DNA of 64,000 bases from Thermofilaceae archaeon (GCA_038731975.1 JAVYQJ010000001.1:124001-188000), one strand, 5' to 3'. Counted from the first letter of the stretch, positions 40,727 through 50,855 are shown. Numbers and translations: made by a program. The notes: generated by a model not told the origin, from the sequence alone.

Positions 40727-40984
40727 GTGTCAACGGGTTTTTCGATCCGGATAGGACCCCCCTGGCTCACTAGGTATGAGAAAGCCCGAATTATAGGCGC
40801 GAGAGCTCTACAGTTGTCACTGGGGGCGCCGCCGCTAGTTCCAGTGGAAGAGTTAGGGCTAAAAGACCCTATCGAGATCGCCGCAATGGAGCTTAAGCTA
40901 AAGCTTCTACCGATGGTAATTAGGAGGTGGACCTTAAGCGGAGATTACCAGGACATCCCCCTTAGCTATCTTGAAATCAGGTAG
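40727..40984 (+). CDS. rpoK: DNA-directed RNA polymerase subunit K (Rpo6)
   Basis: 85 residues from GTG 40727. The core [18 protein letters not shown] segment (about 14-31), the hydrophobic GAPPLV, and the C-terminal LPMVIRRW...IPLSYLEIR are the omega/RPB6 fold that clamps the largest polymerase subunit. A TTTTTATACCCCC element (40694-40706) is about 26 bp upstream of the start. Its last 8 bp overlap the convergent gene at 40977. Confidence 0.93.
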
Positions 40985-41333
40985 GTTCCTTTCTGATCCT
41001 AAGCGTTCCCTTAGCTATCTCTACTTCCATTAGATCGCCTATCGTGGGTCGATCTATCAAGCGATCCCATTCCTCCTCCGTCAAGTAGAGGGAGAGACGC
41101 GGTAATCGCGCTTTTCCAGCCGCGCCAAAGAACGGCATAGCGCGAAGTATCTGAGAAACGATAGGGGCCAGCTCTCGCGCAATTTCGGATTGATCTGTTG
41201 TCGCTACTATAGCTCCTGGGGTTTCTCGCTCCTCCGTCAAATCCACCTTGACTACTCTCTCCCCCCATGGCGTGTCCACTATCGAGATATTTGTCACAAT
41301 CGCCTTAAAGCGTACGCTCGAGCTTTCCGCCAC
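40977..41333 (-). CDS. Small protein, possible arcadin-1
   Basis: 118 residues from GTG 41333. N-terminal beta strands ([16 protein letters not shown]...KVDLTEE), a central helical stretch, then [14 protein letters not shown] and a short beta end. Size and pattern, with a LTEEEW helix start after a beta strand, agree with what is remembered of arcadin-1 from the Thermoproteales actin cluster, and a crenactin gene lies 2.5 kb downstream. This is pattern recall, not a proven match. A TATA-like CATTTAAGC (minus strand, 41353-41361) gives a leaderless start. Confidence 0.45.
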
Positions 41334-42669: not shown

Positions 42670-43020
42670 TCACACCTCTATGTCGATGAAATCCGGTTTT
42701 CGATCAAGCGATACGATAGGGACGCATATCCATCCGGCTCTAACCCCTGTCAGGCTCTCAACTCTCTCCCCATTTTCATCAACCTTGATTGCCAGGTACT
42801 TGCCTTTTAGTGGCTCGTCCCGCTCCACGTAGTAGAGGATGGGTATTCCATAGTACCTGTAGTAATCTCTGAAAGTAGCGAAAAGACCGTAGTAGTGCTT
42901 ACCGTTATGGCTAAAGTGGATGAGGTACACGGAGCTGGTCATCGTCACCAAAGCTGAGGCTAACCTGGCCAAGTCCGATATTTCCTTTAGTTTTATGCAC
43001 ACGGCCTTCTCGCTGATCAT
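42670..43020 (-). CDS. Hypothetical protein
   Basis: 116 residues, start ATG 43020 overlapping the stop of the upstream gene by 4 bp (ATGA). Alpha/beta protein with a Tyr-rich centre (LFATFRDYYRYYGIPILYYV). No cysteine pairs apart from two isolated residues, no membrane helix, no known motif. Operon position between a cyclophilin-like protein and a small membrane protein suggests a joint role, which cannot be specified. Confidence 0.5.
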   Translation of the reverse strand: MISEKAVCIKLKEISDLARLASALVTMTSSVYLIHFSHNGKHYYGLFATFRDYYRYYGIPILYYVERDEPLKGKYLAIKVDENGERVESLTGVRAGWICVPIVSLDRKPDFIDIEV

Positions 43021-43412
43021 TGAGACACCCTTGCCCTCGGTGGAAGTTTATCAATGACGACCGGTTCACCCTTCTTCAAACCCTTGAGGTTATCGAGAGG
43101 GCTGGTGACTTTACCGATTAAGGTCGACTTGAAACGTATCTTCTCCACGTCGTTTAACACCACGGCGATGCTGTTTGTGTAGGGTATTACGATGACATCG
43201 CCTTGCTTGGCCGATACGTAGAGGTCTTCGAGAAGGACTCTGACCCCCAATGTGAAGTATACAGCGTACGAGTCGAGAGTATAGGCTCTAGCTTTGGCTG
43301 GGAGAATCGCGGATATGATCTCAAAGTTAAGTGGGGCCCAATCACGGTAAACTTCGGCTTCTACTACAGTTGAACCGTCCAACCTTTTCACAGCAATGCG
43401 TAGGTTTGACAT
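43017..43412 (-). CDS. Cyclophilin-like fold protein (TM1367/DUF369 type)
   Basis: 131 residues from ATG 43412. An N-terminal strand pair (LRIAVKRLDGSTVVEAEV) leads into APLNFEIISAILPAKARA, then VYFTLGV and KQGDVIVIPYTNSIAVVLN, the order of elements in TM1367-like cyclophilin-fold proteins. These lack proven prolyl isomerase activity. The assignment rests on pattern, not on a search. It heads a three-gene operon that diverges from the coiled-coil gene upstream of crenactin, with an 84-bp control region containing TTTTTAAACG (43439-43448). Confidence 0.6.
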   Translation of the reverse strand: MSNLRIAVKRLDGSTVVEAEVYRDWAPLNFEIISAILPAKARAYTLDSYAVYFTLGVRVLLEDLYVSAKQGDVIVIPYTNSIAVVLNDVEKIRFKSTLIGKVTSPLDNLKGLKKGEPVVIDKLPPRARVSQ

Positions 43413-43496: not shown

Positions 43497-43724
43497 GTGG
43501 GAATCTCTCTATCCGATTTTAAGGATCCACGTGACGCGCTAAAAGCACTTGAAAAGAGGCGTGCTGAGCTTGAGAAAGAGTTGGAATCCCTCATAAAAAG
43601 ACGCGAGCGCGGTGAGATAGGAGAGGAACAGTTTGAAGAACTTAGGGTGAAGCTGGAAAGGGAATTCATCGAGGTTATGGATAGAATAGCACAGTTGCGA
43701 TTTATCGTTGGTGGAGGCCTCTAG
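43497..43724 (+). CDS. Small coiled-coil protein upstream of crenactin
   Basis: 75 residues from GTG 43497. After about 12 residues almost the whole chain is a continuous charged helix with leucine spacing typical of an antiparallel or dimeric coiled coil (LEKRRAELEKELESLIKRRE, then EEQFEELRVKLEREFIEVM). It ends in a short hydrophobic tail FIVGGGL. No family recognised. It lies 68 bp ahead of the crenactin gene in the same direction and could belong to the arcade cluster. Crenactin has its own TATA box in between. Confidence 0.55.
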   Translation: MGISLSDFKDPRDALKALEKRRAELEKELESLIKRRERGEIGEEQFEELRVKLEREFIEVMDRIAQLRFIVGGGL

Positions 43725-43755
43725 GATTACTTTCACCTATATCTCATGCAATCCG

Positions 43756-43765
43756 CTTTAAATAC
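43756..43765 (+). promoter_or_regulatory. TATA box of the crenactin operon
   Basis: CTTTAAATAC predicts a transcription start near 43787, with a very short leader before ATG 43793. This suggests crenactin and the three following genes are transcribed as one unit separately from the coiled-coil gene. Confidence 0.55.
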
Positions 43766-43792
43766 TCCCCCCATTGTAATTATAGGTCTGGC

Positions 43793-45085
43793 ATGGCGGG
43801 GGCAACGCTCGATCCGAGAAGGGCGTTATCCGCGTACGGCGAAGACTACGGTACCCGCTACTTCAAGTACGGACCGTTGATGGAGCGGAGACCCCGCATA
43901 ATGGAAAGCGTCGGACTGTTCCTCGAAGAGAGCCACCTCTTGAAGATGTACGGTGTTGAGAAGCAGCTCGTAGTGGGCGATGAGGTGAAGAAGTTCCTAG
44001 GAGCTAAGAGCGCAGTAGCACGCAATCTCGTCTACCCTCTTACGGACGGTGAGGTCAAGAGGGACGACGAACGAGGCTGGGCAGTTATAACGGAGCTCAC
44101 TAAGAAAGGATTCGAGCAGTTCAGGGAATTAAAAGAAAAAGAGGGTTTTGACGGCTTTTACGTCACAGCCGCCCTCTCCGCGATAGCGCCGGAGTACATG
44201 AGCGAAAAACTACTCAGCATACACAGTAGGATTGATCGGGAGACGGGGCTCATTAAGGCTTTCACCGTGATACCACAGCCTTTGGCCGTCGCAATAGCCG
44301 AGAAGGAAATATCCTGCGTAGTCATTGAATCGGGACACGGCAACACTCAAATCACGCCGATACATACTTACCCTCTGAGAGAAGCTGTTGTTGCGCTGTA
44401 CAGGGGGGGCGCTGAGGCGGACGCTATATCAGCTGAAGTGCTGAAAGATCTTGGCTACGGTGACTTAGCAAGCGATGAAGCTGTAGTGAGGAAGTTTAAG
44501 GAGGAAGCTGGGCTTATTCCTGCGGATTTTAACACCGCTGTGAAGAAAGCGAAAGAGGATCCAGAAAGGTTCAGATGCAAAGTAAGGCTATCAGCGCTCA
44601 CCGAGATCGATATGGAGGATAAGGGGTGGCTAAGGTTCCTCATTGGAGAGGTGGTGTTTAACCCATCACACGAGGTCTACGAAAGTTACAGAAAGCGGGG
44701 TGTACTCAACATAAGGGATGCAAGGCTCGGTGACGAGACGATTGAGGGTTCACTCCCGCTGGATGAAGCTATAGTAAGGTCAATTCGTAAAACTCCCACT
44801 TCGCTACACGATACGCTCCTTAGTAGGATGATTCTCAGCGGTGGGAACTTTCAGTGGAAAGCTCCTGAGAATTTGAGGGACGTGGCCGTTACTTCACCAG
44901 TAAAGGTGAAGCAGCTCCTGACTGAGCGGCTCGGCAGCGCGATTAGTATCGATGTGCGCTTAACGCAGGATCCACAGTTCTCGGTCTGGAAGGGCTGCGT
45001 GGTGTGGAGCTTGGCGTTGCCCGATAACTACCTGTGGAATGAGAGGAGGGGTGAGGGATGGTTCAAGAGAGGCGTTCACTTCTAA
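43793..45085 (+). CDS. Crenactin, archaeal actin homologue
   Basis: 430 residues. Actin-fold motifs in order: phosphate-1 loop EDYGTRYFK (17-25), phosphate-2 loop ESGHGNTQ (179-186), RGGAEAD (205-211), connect/adenosine segment ILSGGNFQW (347-355), and the C-terminal QFSVWKGCVVWSLALP. These match crenactin of Pyrobaculum calidifontis, which forms double-helical actin-like filaments and is linked to rod shape. The gene heads an operon with overlapping or closely spaced genes for a 234-residue protein, a 67-residue protein and a Rad50-like ATPase, the arrangement called arcade. The first 28 bp of the next gene lie inside it. Confidence 0.93.
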   Translation: MAGATLDPRRALSAYGEDYGTRYFKYGPLMERRPRIMESVGLFLEESHLLKMYGVEKQLVVGDEVKKFLGAKSAVARNLVYPLTDGEVKRDDERGWAVITELTKKGFEQFRELKEKEGFDGFYVTAALSAIAPEYMSEKLLSIHSRIDRETGLIKAFTVIPQPLAVAIAEKEISCVVIESGHGNTQITPIHTYPLREAVVALYRGGAEADAISAEVLKDLGYGDLASDEAVVRKFKEEAGLIPADFNTAVKKAKEDPERFRCKVRLSALTEIDMEDKGWLRFLIGEVVFNPSHEVYESYRKRGVLNIRDARLGDETIEGSLPLDEAIVRSIRKTPTSLHDTLLSRMILSGGNFQWKAPENLRDVAVTSPVKVKQLLTERLGSAISIDVRLTQDPQFSVWKGCVVWSLALPDNYLWNERRGEGWFKRGVHF

Positions 45086-45762
45086 TCGGCATTCTCAGGA
45101 AATACTTCCATGAAAAGGGGTATAGTGAAACAGCACCTTTCGAGGGCCTAGACCTAACCTTTACGAATAAGCGAACTACGGTCGGAGTGAAAGTGCTGTC
45201 TTACTCGAGCAACCCTGTAAAGGATCAGAAGGCGATTAGAAGCTGCATGTATCGCTTGTTAAGGGATAAGCCATGTGATGAGATTTACTTTGCTACAGAG
45301 GAGATAAGGTATAGCCACCTGCCCTCATTTGAGGAATTTAAGGAAAGTGGGATTGGCCTACTGAAGGTTTCTGAGGATAGGATTGAGGTAGCAGTACCCG
45401 CGAGACCTTTTGGGGATGCGAGCGGCCTAACTGTGCAAGGTAAGCTTCCCGCCACGAGGGGTAGCACTCCAGCAACTGTCGTACCGTTTTCGGAGGAGAT
45501 TCTGTTCAAGGAGCTTGAGAGGAAAGTAATAGAACTGATAGAACGGAAGATAACTGAGCACTTGGCCGGGAAGGTACAGGCTACTAACACCCTCCTCGAG
45601 GTTTCCTCCGAATCTCAGGTTGCAAAATCCGAGGTATGGAATGGGGATAGAGGTAGGGACTATAGGAACTTCGACCTGAGTGAGGGCGGTGCGCTCCAGG
45701 ATGTGGATTTTCTTAAAGGAAATCCGTGGCTTTCAGAGCTCATGAAGAGGGGGAGCGGGTAA
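45058..45762 (+). CDS. Arcade-cluster protein, arcadin-2-like by position and tail
   Basis: 234 residues from ATG 45058, overlapping the crenactin gene by 28 bp. Residues 1-110 form an alpha/beta domain with nuclease- or Rossmann-like strand spacing. A glycine/proline-rich linker (about 115-145) leads to a charged helix (about 148-172) that could dimerise, then a disordered acidic region. The chain ends in a short amphipathic segment DVDFLKGNPWLSELMKRG. In Pyrobaculum, arcadin-2 binds crenactin through a short C-terminal helix, so this protein may be the functional equivalent. No direct homology is claimed. Confidence 0.55.
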   Translation: MVQERRSLLIGILRKYFHEKGYSETAPFEGLDLTFTNKRTTVGVKVLSYSSNPVKDQKAIRSCMYRLLRDKPCDEIYFATEEIRYSHLPSFEEFKESGIGLLKVSEDRIEVAVPARPFGDASGLTVQGKLPATRGSTPATVVPFSEEILFKELERKVIELIERKITEHLAGKVQATNTLLEVSSESQVAKSEVWNGDRGRDYRNFDLSEGGALQDVDFLKGNPWLSELMKRGSG

Positions 45763-45781
45763 ACCTCGGGTGAACTAGCGC

Positions 45782-45985
45782 ATGGTTGAAAGAAGAGGGT
45801 CGACGGGGGTCACTATTTACGATGAGCTCCTCCGTTTACTAAGAGACGTATTAAGAGAGAGCCCTGAGACCTATGAGCTTGCTGAAAAACTGGTGAAGGC
45901 CTACAGGGATCAGGGCCCTCGAGGCATCAGAGAGGAGATTAGAAAATTGGTTGCTGAGGTGTTGAATGGTGCCACTGAGGCTTAA
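45782..45985 (+). CDS. Small helical arcade-cluster protein, arcadin-3-like by position
   Basis: 67 residues from ATG 45782. All-helical prediction with alternating charged and leucine positions (YDELLRLLRDVLRES, then a second helix pair ending LVAEVLNGA). No cysteine, no membrane segment, no recognised family. It overlaps the Rad50-like gene by 20 bp and follows the 234-residue gene by 19 bp, so it is translated as part of the crenactin operon. Small size and tight coupling suggest a structural or regulatory subunit. Confidence 0.55.
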   Translation: MVERRGSTGVTIYDELLRLLRDVLRESPETYELAEKLVKAYRDQGPRGIREEIRKLVAEVLNGATEA

Positions 45986-48377
45986 GAGCTTAGAAGCTGA
46001 GGGTTTCAGAGCCTTTGACCGTAGGATTTCTATCGAGTTCAGTGATGATCTCACGGTTATTTTCGGCCCTCCTGGGGCTGGTAAAACTTCGCTTGTCAGA
46101 GCCTTAGAATTCGCTCTTTTCGGAATGATTCGAGAACTACCCACGAGAAACCTCAGGAAAGAGGATCTAATCAATGACTTCTGCGAAGAAGCGAAAGTTC
46201 GAGTGGTTCTCACAGATGGAAGCACGGACATAAGCATAACAAGAACGCTTAATAGAACTGGACTAACGACCCTCGTCGTTACTGTTGGTAACAACGAGTT
46301 TCGCGATGACGTAGCAGAGAAGTACCTACAGTCGAAGCTTAGCTGCCCATTCGACGAGTTCGTAACCGAGTATTCGCTAGGCTACCAGGAGCTATACACG
46401 CTTCTTCACGCTCCACCAGCTGAGCAAGGAAGGCTGTTCGATGTGCTTCTCGGGATCAGCGAGCTAGAAAAACTCCAGAGAGAGATCAGTTTGAAGGATG
46501 TTAAAGACGCGTTAAAGAGTATAGAGGAGGAGGAGCGCAAATTAGGAGGCGAATCGATTCTCGAAGAGCTACCGAGGTTGAAAAGCAGGTACGCGGAACT
46601 GATCAAAAGAAGGGATGAGTTACAGGCGGAGCTGGATAGGCTAGAAGTGAAAAGGAGGCTGCTGGAAGAGGAATACAGCGCGCTCCAAGCTTGCAGCAAA
46701 GAAGTGGAGAAGCTTCGATTAGAGGCTGAAAAACTTAGAGAACAATTGAAAGTCCTAGAGAGCGAGAAGCCAGTCAAGTTTATCGAAGTCGACCAGAGCT
46801 ATATCCTTGAATTGGCAGGAAACTTAAAAAACGACCTATGTAGCCTGCTTGAAGAATGTTTTCTCGGAGAAGAGGCAAAGTTAATCCGTGATTACGAAGT
46901 ATCGATAAGTAATATCACATCTTTTGTTGAAATGTTCAAACGTTTGGTAACAAAGGTTAACGAAGAATGCATTTTGCAATTAAACTATGATATTCAGAAT
47001 ATCAGAAATAGAATAAATTACATGGAGAGTTATATAAGAAAACTGGAAGATGATTTAGGGGAAATAGAATCTGAAATTGAAAAAATGAAAAGCTCTCAAA
47101 TAGAATATGAAAAAATAAAGGAAAAATATGGTGACATTCCAACATTGGCTAAAAAAATAGCACAACTCGAAGTTAAACTAAAGGCTCTTCAACGAGAAGA
47201 AGGCAGATCATTATGCATACACGCGATACAGAAGGAGGTAATGGAAAGCCTAAAAAATCGGAATTATGTCAAATGCCCAGTATGTGGGAATCAAGTCACT
47301 AGTTTTAGCTCGCTTCCTGAAGCAACCCCACCCGAGAGTACGAGTCTTCAGCGTGAAAGGATAGAGAGATCCTTATCCGAGCTGAAAGATGCTGAGCGGA
47401 GGCTAAGAGAGCTCGAATACAGTCTTAGACTGTTATCGAATTACGAAAAGAGGAGAAGCGAGTTAGAGAGTGAGCTGGAAAGGGCATTGGATGAGCTGAG
47501 AGAATTAAGACTGAACTTGGACGAGCTCGAAGAGCGTATGAGCATATTGAAAAACAAATTAATAGAATTGACAAAAGGTTATAATCAACTAGAAAATCTT
47601 TACAGGAGTCTTCGATACTTTGAGCTTAGGGAAATGTTGAGGAAAATTGAGAACCGGTTGAGAGAGCTGGGATATGATGAAGAAAGAGTGCGAAAAATTA
47701 CTGAGGACATCGTCAAAGTCAAAGAAGCCATATCTGCGAACAGGGAGTTGCTAAAGGAACTCGAGCGTCAAGAAGGCGAAATGGCGCGCCGGATAAGGGA
47801 ATACGAGCTTGCAAGCGCTAAGTTAAAGGAGCTACGCGTCAGGCGGGAGAGGCTCGAGCTGATTTACAACCGCTTAGAACGTATCAAGAGGGCTCTCTCC
47901 GATACGCACGTGGCCTTGCGTCGAAGCCTGGCCGAGAAACTCTCGGGTATCGCATCGAGGTTTTTTGTCGAGCTTGATCCTAGCATGCAGTATGATGCGG
48001 TGCTCATAAGCGTTGAGAGCCACTGGGCTCAAAGCGGAAGGGGTAGGTATGTTGCATTTGTAAAAAGGCGAACTGACGGGAAGATAGTTCCCGTTGCTAC
48101 ACGCTTAAGCGACGGCCAGAAATCTGTCTTCGCTCTTTCCCTTTTCCTCGCCGCAAGGCTACTTAAGCCTGGGAACTTGGCCTTCCTTGTCTTAGACGAT
48201 CCGGTTCCGAACGTTGATGAAAGCACCCATGTGTTGCTAGCCAAAGCGCTGCTAAGGTTGAGTCCAGGTGTCCAGGTCATATTGACCACCCAAAGTAGGA
48301 GCGTTGCAGAAGAAATCGCGAGGCTGGCGAAGGTCATAGACCTGAGCCAACAGCGTGCATCTAACGAAGCTCACTGA
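45966..48377 (+). CDS. Rad50/SMC-like ATPase of the crenactin cluster (arcadin-4 type)
   Basis: 803 residues from ATG 45966. ABC-type head split by a long coiled coil: Walker A GPPGAGKTS (34-42), coiled coil about 160-690, a zinc-hook CPVC at 437-440, signature RLSDGQKS near 713, and Walker B FLVLDDPVP near 738. This is the Rad50 architecture. Arcadin-4 of the Pyrobaculum cluster was described as SMC/Rad50-like, and its position as last gene of the crenactin operon fits. No Mre11, HerA or NurA gene is adjacent, unlike the DNA-repair Rad50 operon of most archaea. The segment around 46900-47280 is more A/T-rich than its flanks. Confidence 0.85.
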   Translation: MVPLRLKSLEAEGFRAFDRRISIEFSDDLTVIFGPPGAGKTSLVRALEFALFGMIRELPTRNLRKEDLINDFCEEAKVRVVLTDGSTDISITRTLNRTGLTTLVVTVGNNEFRDDVAEKYLQSKLSCPFDEFVTEYSLGYQELYTLLHAPPAEQGRLFDVLLGISELEKLQREISLKDVKDALKSIEEEERKLGGESILEELPRLKSRYAELIKRRDELQAELDRLEVKRRLLEEEYSALQACSKEVEKLRLEAEKLREQLKVLESEKPVKFIEVDQSYILELAGNLKNDLCSLLEECFLGEEAKLIRDYEVSISNITSFVEMFKRLVTKVNEECILQLNYDIQNIRNRINYMESYIRKLEDDLGEIESEIEKMKSSQIEYEKIKEKYGDIPTLAKKIAQLEVKLKALQREEGRSLCIHAIQKEVMESLKNRNYVKCPVCGNQVTSFSSLPEATPPESTSLQRERIERSLSELKDAERRLRELEYSLRLLSNYEKRRSELESELERALDELRELRLNLDELEERMSILKNKLIELTKGYNQLENLYRSLRYFELREMLRKIENRLRELGYDEERVRKITEDIVKVKEAISANRELLKELERQEGEMARRIREYELASAKLKELRVRRERLELIYNRLERIKRALSDTHVALRRSLAEKLSGIASRFFVELDPSMQYDAVLISVESHWAQSGRGRYVAFVKRRTDGKIVPVATRLSDGQKSVFALSLFLAARLLKPGNLAFLVLDDPVPNVDESTHVLLAKALLRLSPGVQVILTTQSRSVAEEIARLAKVIDLSQQRASNEAH

Positions 48378-48641: not shown

Positions 48642-48681
48642 AGCACAAAAGGTATTAAAGGCTTGCACAAACACCCTTTCA

Positions 48682-48796
48682 GCCCCGGTCGTATAGTCTG
48701 GCCCAGTAACCCACATAAGCTGGATTGCCGGCCTGTCGAGCCGGAGAGCGGGGAGCCGCACGGAAAACCCGGGTTCAAATCCCGGCCGGGGCGCCA
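48682..48796 (+). tRNA. tRNA-Asp (anticodon GTC) with two introns
   Basis: Acceptor GCCCCGG/CCGGGGC, G73, encoded CCA, anticodon stem CCGGC/GCCGG around loop CTGTCGA (anticodon GTC). Between D-arm base 24 and the anticodon stem there are about 17 extra nt; CCAG of the exon pairs with CTGG near the end of the insert, as in a splicing bulge-helix. The variable loop holds about 19 extra nt with hairpin GCGG-GGAG-CCGC, leaving AAAAC or a similar 5-nt loop. Exact junctions are uncertain by a base or two. Confidence 0.82.
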
Positions 48797-48891: not shown

Positions 48892-49884
48892 TCAGTCAGT
48901 AGAGTAGAGAGGCAAGCCCTCTTCAAGATCTATCGTTACTTTCGTTAGCTCCTCTGCCACTTCTGCCCCGTAATCTTCTAGGAGTATAAGTGCTGCCGCT
49001 TTCGGCGGTATGATCCCTCGCTCGGTGATAATTGCGTCTATGTATTCAGGTGGCGTAACATCAAAGGCTGGGTTACGAACCTTAAGATTGGTATACTTCG
49101 ACAGAATGTGCGTGGGTAAAACCTCGTCTGCCCCTCTTTCCTCTATCTCTACCAGTTCTCCGAGAATAGTTGCTGGGCTGAATTTGTATGTTTCAGTGGC
49201 CACGTAGAGCTTGACTCCTGCTTCATACGCAGCGAGAGCGATCAGCGACGTCCCGATCTTGTTCACCACGGCACCGTTAGCAGTAACTGTGTCAGCACCG
49301 ACCACAACTTTGTCGACATCCCTGATGAAGTATCTCACGGCCGAATCCGGGATGAGAGTGGTGGGGACTCCCGCGTCAACCAACTCTCGATAACTCAGCA
49401 ATCCCTGGAACTTGGGGCGCGTCTCTGTAGCGTAGGCTACGATATTTTTCCCCTTTCTGTACGCCGTCTTTATGACCGATAGAGCCGCCGAACTGTTGCA
49501 ATGCGTCAAAACAACGTCACCATCTTCGATGAGACGAGAGCCGATCTCCCCTATGATTCTAACCGCATTCAGGGACGATACTATGAAGCTGTCTGCTGCT
49601 TTTACCGCCATTTCAACCCCTTCCTCGCAGCTGCTCGCTCTGCGGACCTTGTTCATCACGTATCTAACCGCGTTATGGAGGGATACCGCGGTGGGTCTAG
49701 TAGAGGTTAGTATCTGAGCATTATGCCTCATGTACGTCAAATAGTCGTCGAGGGATGACCCCTTGTACTCTAGCGCAGCTATCTTCATCGCGTAAGCAGC
49801 TGCTCTCGCGATCCTACCCGCTCCTCTCACACGCATGTCTTTGATTAACTGCGCTATCTTTAGGACTTTAGGCGATGCTTTCAC
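48892..49884 (-). CDS. Ribose-1,5-bisphosphate isomerase
   Basis: 330 residues from GTG 49884, which overlaps the stop of the upstream paralogue (GTGA) behind a GGGGGG run; an ATG at 49947 would overlap by 67 bp. eIF2B/MtnA-like fold with the phosphate-binding GAGRIARAA (21-29), nucleophile C129 (THCNSS) and D198 (VGADTVTANG), matching the catalytic Cys and Asp of Thermococcus R15P isomerase. It converts ribose-1,5-bisphosphate to ribulose-1,5-bisphosphate in the AMP salvage route that feeds form III Rubisco. The other enzymes of that route are not in the window. Confidence 0.88.
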   Translation of the reverse strand: MKASPKVLKIAQLIKDMRVRGAGRIARAAAYAMKIAALEYKGSSLDDYLTYMRHNAQILTSTRPTAVSLHNAVRYVMNKVRRASSCEEGVEMAVKAADSFIVSSLNAVRIIGEIGSRLIEDGDVVLTHCNSSAALSVIKTAYRKGKNIVAYATETRPKFQGLLSYRELVDAGVPTTLIPDSAVRYFIRDVDKVVVGADTVTANGAVVNKIGTSLIALAAYEAGVKLYVATETYKFSPATILGELVEIEERGADEVLPTHILSKYTNLKVRNPAFDVTPPEYIDAIITERGIIPPKAAALILLEDYGAEVAEELTKVTIDLEEGLPLYSTD

Positions 49885-50855
49885 CCCCCTGCCACCTCCA
49901 CCAACTTTTCTAGGCGGGAGATCAGATCGTGAGCTTCGGTAGGCCATCCATATAGTTCGCGCACGAGTAGGATCACTGCCTCTGGAGCCACCACGCCTTT
50001 CTCAGTAACTATGGCGTCAACGTACCGGGGTGGTGTTACGTCGAAAAGTGGGTAGCACACGTTTAGATCCCTCCTTTTTTCGAGCCCCGGTAAGAGGCTC
50101 ACATCTCTCATCACAGGGAGTTTCACAAGCTCCCCGAAGATCGTCTCTGCAGAGAACTTGTGCGTCGTGGTAAGCACGAAGGTTCTAACTCGAGCCTCAT
50201 TAGCGGCGAGAGCGATCAACGATGTTCCCACTTTGTTCACGACAGCGCCGTTAGCCGCTATTGCTTCAGCTCCTGTTACTACCAAGTCCACTTCCTTCAT
50301 GAAGTGCCTTACCGACGAGTCCACGATAAGCTCGGTTTCGATGCCCATCTCACTCAACTCTTGCGCCAATCGAATGCCCTCACCACCGGGCCTTGATTCA
50401 GTGACGAAAGCGCGTACTCGCTTTCCCTCCGATTTCAGCCGGGAAAAGAGCATCTTTACTACTCTGCTGTAAGAGCAGGTTAACAGAGATGCGTTCTCAC
50501 GCACGCGCCGGGCGCCAAGCGCAGCAGCCAGGCTTATCGCATTTTCTATCTCTCTTCTCACAGCACTAACCCCCTCTTCAACCATCTTTGTCACCTCGCT
50601 CTTCGAAGCCCCCGTCCTCACGCCGCTCTCAATGTAGTCCAGCATTCTCTTCATCGCGTTGAACAGCATTATCGAAGTTGGCCTCCTATCAGTGACGTAC
50701 TTTAACGCCGCCAGCAAATCCTCGAGAGCCTCCCGCGTACTGGAAGCTTGCTCAAATACCTCTTGTACCGCGTGAAGAGCACGAAATGTCGCATCTGTCG
50801 AGCTATAGATCCTGAACTCTCCAATGTCTAGGAAAGCCTCATGTATTCGTGACAT
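49881..50855 (-). CDS. Ribose-1,5-bisphosphate isomerase/eIF2B-like paralogue lacking key residues
   Basis: 324 residues from ATG 50855, directly upstream of and coupled to the isomerase gene. The two proteins align along their length (NGAVVNK.GTSLIALAA is shared almost unchanged). The cysteine is kept (C127, LLTCSYS), but the catalytic aspartate is glutamate (E197, TGAEAIAANG) and the N-terminal GAGRIARAA phosphate loop is replaced. It may therefore be a regulatory partner, an eIF2B-like protein, or an enzyme with a different substrate. Tandem duplication is the simplest origin. Confidence 0.75.
   Translation of the reverse strand: MSRIHEAFLDIGEFRIYSSTDATFRALHAVQEVFEQASSTREALEDLLAALKYVTDRRPTSIMLFNAMKRMLDYIESGVRTGASKSEVTKMVEEGVSAVRREIENAISLAAALGARRVRENASLLTCSYSRVVKMLFSRLKSEGKRVRAFVTESRPGGEGIRLAQELSEMGIETELIVDSSVRHFMKEVDLVVTGAEAIAANGAVVNKVGTSLIALAANEARVRTFVLTTTHKFSAETIFGELVKLPVMRDVSLLPGLEKRRDLNVCYPLFDVTPPRYVDAIVTEKGVVAPEAVILLVRELYGWPTEAHDLISRLEKLVEVAGG

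Follow-up and report, generated by a model that had tools for sequence, protein, structure and literature searches.

A divergent arcade (crenactin) cytoskeleton cluster in a Thermofilaceae archaeon, with an arcadin-2 predicted to carry a PD-(D/E)XK-like core

Introduction

The closest described counterpart of the locus analyzed here is the arcade cytoskeleton of Pyrobaculum calidifontis, in which the actin homologue crenactin is encoded with its partner proteins, the arcadins. ATP-dependent, double-helical crenactin filaments that are depolymerized by arcadin-2 have been shown for this species only, and the arcadin-2 peptide 187-203, which was crystallized in the groove of crenactin, depolymerizes the filaments (PMC5173319). 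We examined a stretch of 64,000 nucleotides (nt) from a Thermofilaceae archaeon (GCA_038731975.1, JAVYQJ010000001.1:124001-188000), hereafter the window, in whose Thermofilales-like genome of 1.85 Mb an earlier note had placed an arcade system with unusual partner genes. Based on gene identities, gene order, and conserved motifs, together with a predicted fold for arcadin-2, we conclude with a probability of roughly 0.9 that this locus holds an arcade cytoskeleton cluster, complete though divergent, in which the arcadin-2 tail competes for the crenactin groove.

Results

The window carries genes for crenactin, arcadin-2, arcadin-3, and arcadin-4 in that order (Table 1), and the gene families found support its identity as an arcade system. 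The five open reading frames drawn in the earlier note are exact to the base, as are their junctions: crenactin and arcadin-2 overlap by 28 bp, arcadin-2 and arcadin-3 are separated by 19 bp, and arcadin-3 and arcadin-4 overlap by 20 bp. The interval given there, 43497-48377, contains the correct genes but leaves arcadin-1 outside. A putative TATA box lies ~37 nt 5' of the crenactin ATG, and three relatives (L064, L065, and L067) have a comparable one between about -32 and -40. This TATA-like box, being present also in close relatives, suggests that a crenactin-2-3-4 unit starts there, and its position points to a crenactin transcript with a short leader or none.

Window crenactin matches the NCBIfam model NF053560 with an expectation value (E) of 1.7e-169 (564 bits; cut-off 630) and the P. 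calidifontis crenactin structures in the PDB (4cj7, 5ly3, and 5mw1) with E 8.5e-108, whereas the best eukaryotic-type actin reaches only ~4e-6. The protein encoded from position 43793 is therefore crenactin, as the earlier note had proposed from its actin fold and motifs, and not MreB, ParM, or Lokiactin. In a tree it groups among the crenactins of its relatives, and it is 80% identical to the crenactin of the nearest named relative, 'Thermofilales archaeon RSNS8'. The nucleotide-binding loops are kept in the alignment, as is the catalytic glutamine, Q162 (Q164 in P. calidifontis, Q137 in actin).

The 234-amino-acid (aa) protein encoded after crenactin had no match in direct Pfam, NCBIfam (NF053561), or PDB sequence searches, and the arcadin-2 model NF053561 had no match in any genome of the window's family; Pfam searches over all arcadin-2 sequences returned coiled-coil noise only. 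Intermediate lineages, however, match the arcadin-2 model directly. We found 21 Thermofilales homologues, each encoded by the gene after crenactin, that align with the window protein. When this Thermofilales set was compared with Pyrobaculum/Thermoproteus arcadin-2 by hhalign, the two aligned over their full length (180 columns, E 2.4e-19), and the parts also aligned separately (N-domain, 3.9e-12; tail, 2.6e-8), while reversed and column-shuffled controls gave 0.02 to 0.8. Judged by these sequence comparisons, the 234-aa protein is a divergent orthologue of arcadin-2. The divergence of this lineage explains why arcadin-2 escapes standard models and why the other proteins of the cluster score below the cut-offs.

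The part of arcadin-2 that changes least is its C-terminal helix, the crenactin-binding element, which is kept between the window (FLKGNPWLSELMKR) and Pyrobaculum (IGENEWVKILRSKR). The window protein and its 21 homologues share a helix with the motif (L)P-x-F-x-x-[DN]-N-P-W-[LV]-x-x-L-x-x-R, in which N222 and W224 are invariant among all 22 sequences. Window residues 218-234 (FLKGNPWLSELMKRGSG) align with residues 187-203 of P. calidifontis arcadin-2 (RGGIGENEWVKILRSKR), which are its last 17 residues. We took the latter protein from a locus (L041, genome G063) whose crenactin is identical to the PDB crenactin over the three 30-residue stretches tested, and the presence of RGGIGENEWVKILRSKR at its end fits the crystallized 187-203 peptide. 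The groove helix is conserved in Thermofilales, in Thermoproteaceae, and beyond the class. Among 65 tails, which were aligned on N-[PEQ]-W so that this part is conserved by construction, the L that follows is kept in 63/65 and an R or K at +9 in 65/65. A single arcadin-2 of the ~65 examined, at L071:6838-7584 (-) in the Thermofilum-like genome G030, has two groove helices (LPSFARDNPWLRILSS ... LPSFARDNPWLDFLSRR) and could bind two crenactin subunits.

The 67-aa protein matches NF053562 (26 bits, E 5.6e-6; cut-off 90 bits) and aligns with Pyrobaculum/Thermoproteus arcadin-3 in hhalign (E 1.2e-7; reversed control 0.083), and its position is the same across the class; on these profiles it is a divergent orthologue of arcadin-3. 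The Rad50/SMC-like ATPase that the earlier note saw at the end of the cluster is arcadin-4 (NF053563, E 5.9e-75, 253 bits; cut-off 860), with a CxxC (CPVC) hook at residue 437, an LSDGQK ABC signature, and a Walker B motif FLVLDD. A separate Rad50-like gene, adjoined by genes for HerA and a metallophosphatase (Mre11-like), is present on another contig; arcadin-4 is thus not the sole Rad50-like ATPase of the genome. Arcadin-1 matches PF18653 above the gathering score (E 1.5e-34, 118.8 bits) and is encoded ~2.5 kb upstream of crenactin. A divergent arcadin-1 gene ~1-3 kb upstream of crenactin is common to many other lineages; in Pyrobaculum it is directly upstream on the same strand, and in a Thermofilum-like genus (g7) it is far away. 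Four genomes of families f8 and f9 (G001-G004) have no crenactin, arcadin-2, or arcadin-4 matches, yet give weak arcadin-1 matches (E between 1e-10 and 1e-19); a function of arcadin-1 that does not involve crenactin is thus possible.

Table 1. Features of the crenactin locus in the window.
Feature	Position	Strand	Basis
Crenactin cluster (crenactin, 234-aa, 67-aa, and SMC/Rad50-like ATPase genes)	43793-48377	+	
Crenactin (actin homologue), 430 aa	43793..45085	+	NF053560, PDB matches
Arcadin-2, 234 aa	45058..45762	+	Profile-profile comparison, AlphaFold2 model, Foldseek
Arcadin-2 C-terminal crenactin-groove helix FLKGNPWLSELMKRGSG, residues 218-234	45709..45759	+	Aligned with P. calidifontis 187-203
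Arcadin-3, 67 aa, helical	45782..45985	+	NF053562, hhalign, position
Arcadin-4, Rad50/SMC-like ATPase with CPVC zinc-hook motif, 803 aa	45966..48377	+	NF053563, motifs
Arcadin-1, 118 aa, divergently encoded	40977..41333	-	PF18653
75-aa coiled-coil protein, directly upstream of crenactin	43497..43724	+	Conserved neighbor
Putative TATA box CTTTAAAT	43756..43763	+	Sequence; similar box in relatives

AlphaFold2 models of the window protein and of P. calidifontis arcadin-2 residues 1-119 both predict a helix-3 strands-helix-strand core; for the latter, the predicted local distance difference test was 94 and the predicted template modeling score 0.87. In Foldseek searches against the PDB, the matches were XisH (2okf, E 3.6e-5; 2inb), SPO1766 (3dnx), and AF2093 (2ph7, with the highest template modeling score, 0.64), as well as PaqCI, BamHI, and tRNA-splicing endonucleases, all of which we take to be PD-(D/E)XK-like. 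The predicted architecture of arcadin-2 is therefore a PD-(D/E)XK-like core (1-120), a coiled helix (146-195), a linker, and the C-terminal groove helix (218-234). In the window protein, D32 just before the strand 33-37 and K45 in the strand 40-46 occupy canonical places; both are only partly kept across arcadin-2 sequences, and in Pyrobaculum and its relatives they are missing or scattered. None of 65 arcadin-2 sequences has a D or E at position 43, the place of the acid in the (D/E)xK motif, and for this reason we describe the core as fold-like and do not class it as a nuclease. From the models we infer a PD-(D/E)XK-like nuclease fold that is catalytically dead and has been reused in a cytoskeleton protein, and the sequence of the core predicts that nuclease activity is absent. 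With a net charge of +1 in the window and a median isoelectric point of 5-8 by lineage, the core is close to neutral or mildly acidic, so DNA binding by it is not favored, and we set that function aside. A literature search, which left most subscription papers outside its reach, found no link of arcadin-2 to the PD-(D/E)XK fold; the dead-nuclease core is likely, though not certain, to be a new point.

The gene order is conserved well beyond the window and is more than a chance arrangement. In nearly all class loci fetched (~30, window included), crenactin is followed by genes of ~200-290, ~50-100, and ~780-840 aa, and nearly all loci with this four-gene order repeat the arcadin-3/arcadin-4 overlap; two further class loci reach only to the third gene, where their contigs end. 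The downstream genes thus adjoin crenactin in nearly all relatives, which answers the synteny comparison that the earlier note had proposed. A contig search with window crenactin alone returned just two loci. Among 81 class genomes, we detected crenactin in 70/81, arcadin-1 in 75/81, and an arcadin-4 match in 71/81, although some of the arcadin-4 matches at the threshold used may be Rad50. One genome of the window's own genus (G027, 90% complete) has no detected crenactin, arcadin-1, or arcadin-4; the whole system may have been lost from this close relative, or the assembly may have a gap there.

In the phylum sample, crenactin is present in 127/398 genomes (class included). Of 20 crenactin loci fetched from beyond the class, 18 have a gene encoding the arcadin-2 tail immediately next to crenactin, on one side or the other. 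This agrees with, and widens, earlier records from Culexarchaeia and Caldarchaeales, where arcadin-2 had already been noted (PMC9723716). In loci from outside the class, the gene directly upstream of crenactin is a conserved one of 160-256 aa (165-256 aa at L099, L102, L104, L108, L111-L113, L115, L117, and L118); it has no detectable relation to the window's upstream gene p116 and matches none of the arcadins tested. Several of these loci also have a gene of ~90-100 aa with paired cysteines directly after arcadin-2; we tested it as a candidate arcadin-1 and found no match.

Other genes surround the cluster in the window. Two unnamed genes at 42670-43020 (-) and 43017-43412 (-), the latter weakly cyclophilin-like, adjoin crenactin in most Thermofilales loci. 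On the other side, an intron-bearing tRNA, apparently Asp(GTC), at 48680-48795 (+) was missed by ARAGORN and scores 25 bits, under the cut-off, with the Rfam tRNA model. At 48892-50855 (-), two similar genes of 351 and 324 aa overlap; judged by eye, they resemble tandem ribose-bisphosphate isomerase/eIF2B-like paralogues.

Discussion

By analogy with P. calidifontis, from which we infer both filament formation and depolymerization here, crenactin with ATP would assemble into F-actin-like double helical filaments, and the amphipathic C-terminal helix of arcadin-2 (N-P-W-L-x-x-L-x-x-R) would enter the hydrophobic groove of crenactin. Competition there with the next subunit's D-loop would lead to depolymerization or sequestering. 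The dead PD-(D/E)XK-like N-terminal body, joined through the coiled helix and a flexible linker, would most likely act as a dimerization or scaffold module. Arcadin-3 and the Rad50-like zinc-hook arcadin-4 would be translated from the overlapping genes of the crenactin-2-3-4 unit, with arcadin-1 encoded divergently. The most likely function of this set of proteins is in shaping the cell, in division, or in organizing the nucleoid. We found no match to Snf7/CdvB or FtsZ/tubulin in the window genome, which is in line with reports for Thermoproteales, where a diverged CdvA has been reported (PMC10936438).

Several points weigh against this reading. Window crenactin is 43% identical to the studied P. 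calidifontis protein and has a long stem (0.56) in the tree; biochemical equivalence is therefore extrapolated. No hidden Markov model (HMM) matches arcadin-2 directly, and the scores of crenactin, arcadin-3, and arcadin-4 all stay under the equivalog cut-offs of NCBIfam. The Walker B motif of arcadin-4 (window 48183-48200; also L064-L067) ends in D-D where D-E is usual, which could alter ATPase activity, and the nuclease fold comes from predicted models. The clade with the D-D ending is the window's own, the one whose crenactin has the long stem.

An alternative is that arcadin-2, instead of being a plain sequesterer, is an adaptor: the tail would dock on crenactin while the nuclease-derived core holds nucleic acid or some partner, in the way that ParR connects DNA with ParM by a C-terminal helix in the same groove. 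The PD-(D/E)XK-like predicted core would suit such a role, the arcadin-2 and ParR peptides occupy the same groove in the same orientation (PMC5173319), and in P. calidifontis cells arcadin-2 is reported to lie between segregated nucleoids (PMC9723716). We nevertheless consider it unlikely, given the charge of the core and the finding that the tail peptide, the only crenactin-binding part, depolymerizes on its own (PMC5173319). A fuller version, with similarly low odds, gives arcadin-2 a ParR-like linking role: through its dead XisH-like domain, its coiled coil, and its groove helix, it would connect nucleic acid or a partner protein with crenactin monomers or the ends of filaments. The duplicated helix at L071 would then make the protein bivalent and possibly a nucleator like tandem WH2 proteins.

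It is also conceivable, but in our judgment improbable, that the cluster serves mainly chromosome organization, with arcadin-4 as a substitute for SMC and crenactin as its scaffold. According to a review, Thermofilum adornatum, which carries arcadin-4, lacks clear homologues of SMC, and its chromosome halves are juxtaposed (PMC11946384), and a Rad50 origin has been proposed for arcadin-4 (PMC9389158).

The 75-aa coiled-coil gene is quite improbable as an additional arcade component. It is very conserved, and in 14/15 class genomes with strong matches it lies directly upstream of crenactin and is co-directional with it. However, it is absent from several arcade-bearing lineages (genus g7, families f13 and f14), crenactin has its own putative promoter, and the phylum scan placed the gene in crenactin-less genomes of other classes. 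Because such genomes carry it, we rejected it as a new arcadin and do not count it in the arcade; it is probably a conserved neighbor. Finally, the proposal in the earlier note that the 234- and 67-residue partners are lineage-specific filament regulators, here unrelated proteins replacing arcadin-2 and arcadin-3 at the same position, is very unlikely to hold: it draws on the missing HMM match of arcadin-2 and the 26 bits of arcadin-3, but the profile-profile comparison recommended in that note identifies both as divergent, fast-evolving orthologues with null controls, their position agrees, the diagnostic groove helix is common to both arcadin-2 sets, and intermediate lineages bridge to the arcadin-2 model.

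Within a complete, divergent arcade cluster, then, arcadin-2 combines a groove-binding helix, its most constant part, with a predicted dead-nuclease core that offers a testable handle on the other half of the protein. Across the phylum, crenactin has the arcadin-2 tail encoded next to it. Like Rad50/SMC ATPases, arcadin-4 has ATPase heads, a coiled coil, and a CxxC zinc-hook motif; unlike them, it belongs to the arcadin-4 family and is encoded with crenactin, whereas the genome's separate Rad50-like gene has HerA and Mre11-like neighbors. The arcadin-2 core resembles XisH, SPO1766, and AF2093 in its predicted fold but lacks their (D/E)xK acid, and no nuclease activity is expected. This fold presumably differs from the DNA-binding domain of ParR. 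As in ParM/ParR, a small C-terminal helix of the partner fills a hydrophobic groove of the actin-like protein (PMC5173319), although no sequence relation was detected and arcadin-2 depolymerizes in bulk.

Compared with the P. calidifontis arcade, the window has a crenactin of limited identity, arcadin-2 and arcadin-3 too divergent for the family HMMs, an arcadin-1 gene that is divergent and 2.5 kb off rather than directly upstream on the same strand, a groove helix with NPW instead of NEW, and D32/K45 remnants in the core that Pyrobaculum has lost. The two nonetheless have the same five genes, the crenactin-2-3-4 order, the arcadin-3/4 overlap, the arcadin-2 groove helix, and a Rad50-like arcadin-4. 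Because arcadin-2 and arcadin-3 are present in the window's family, where standard models miss or barely see them, the arcade set is an old, co-inherited unit and not a Pyrobaculum specialty.

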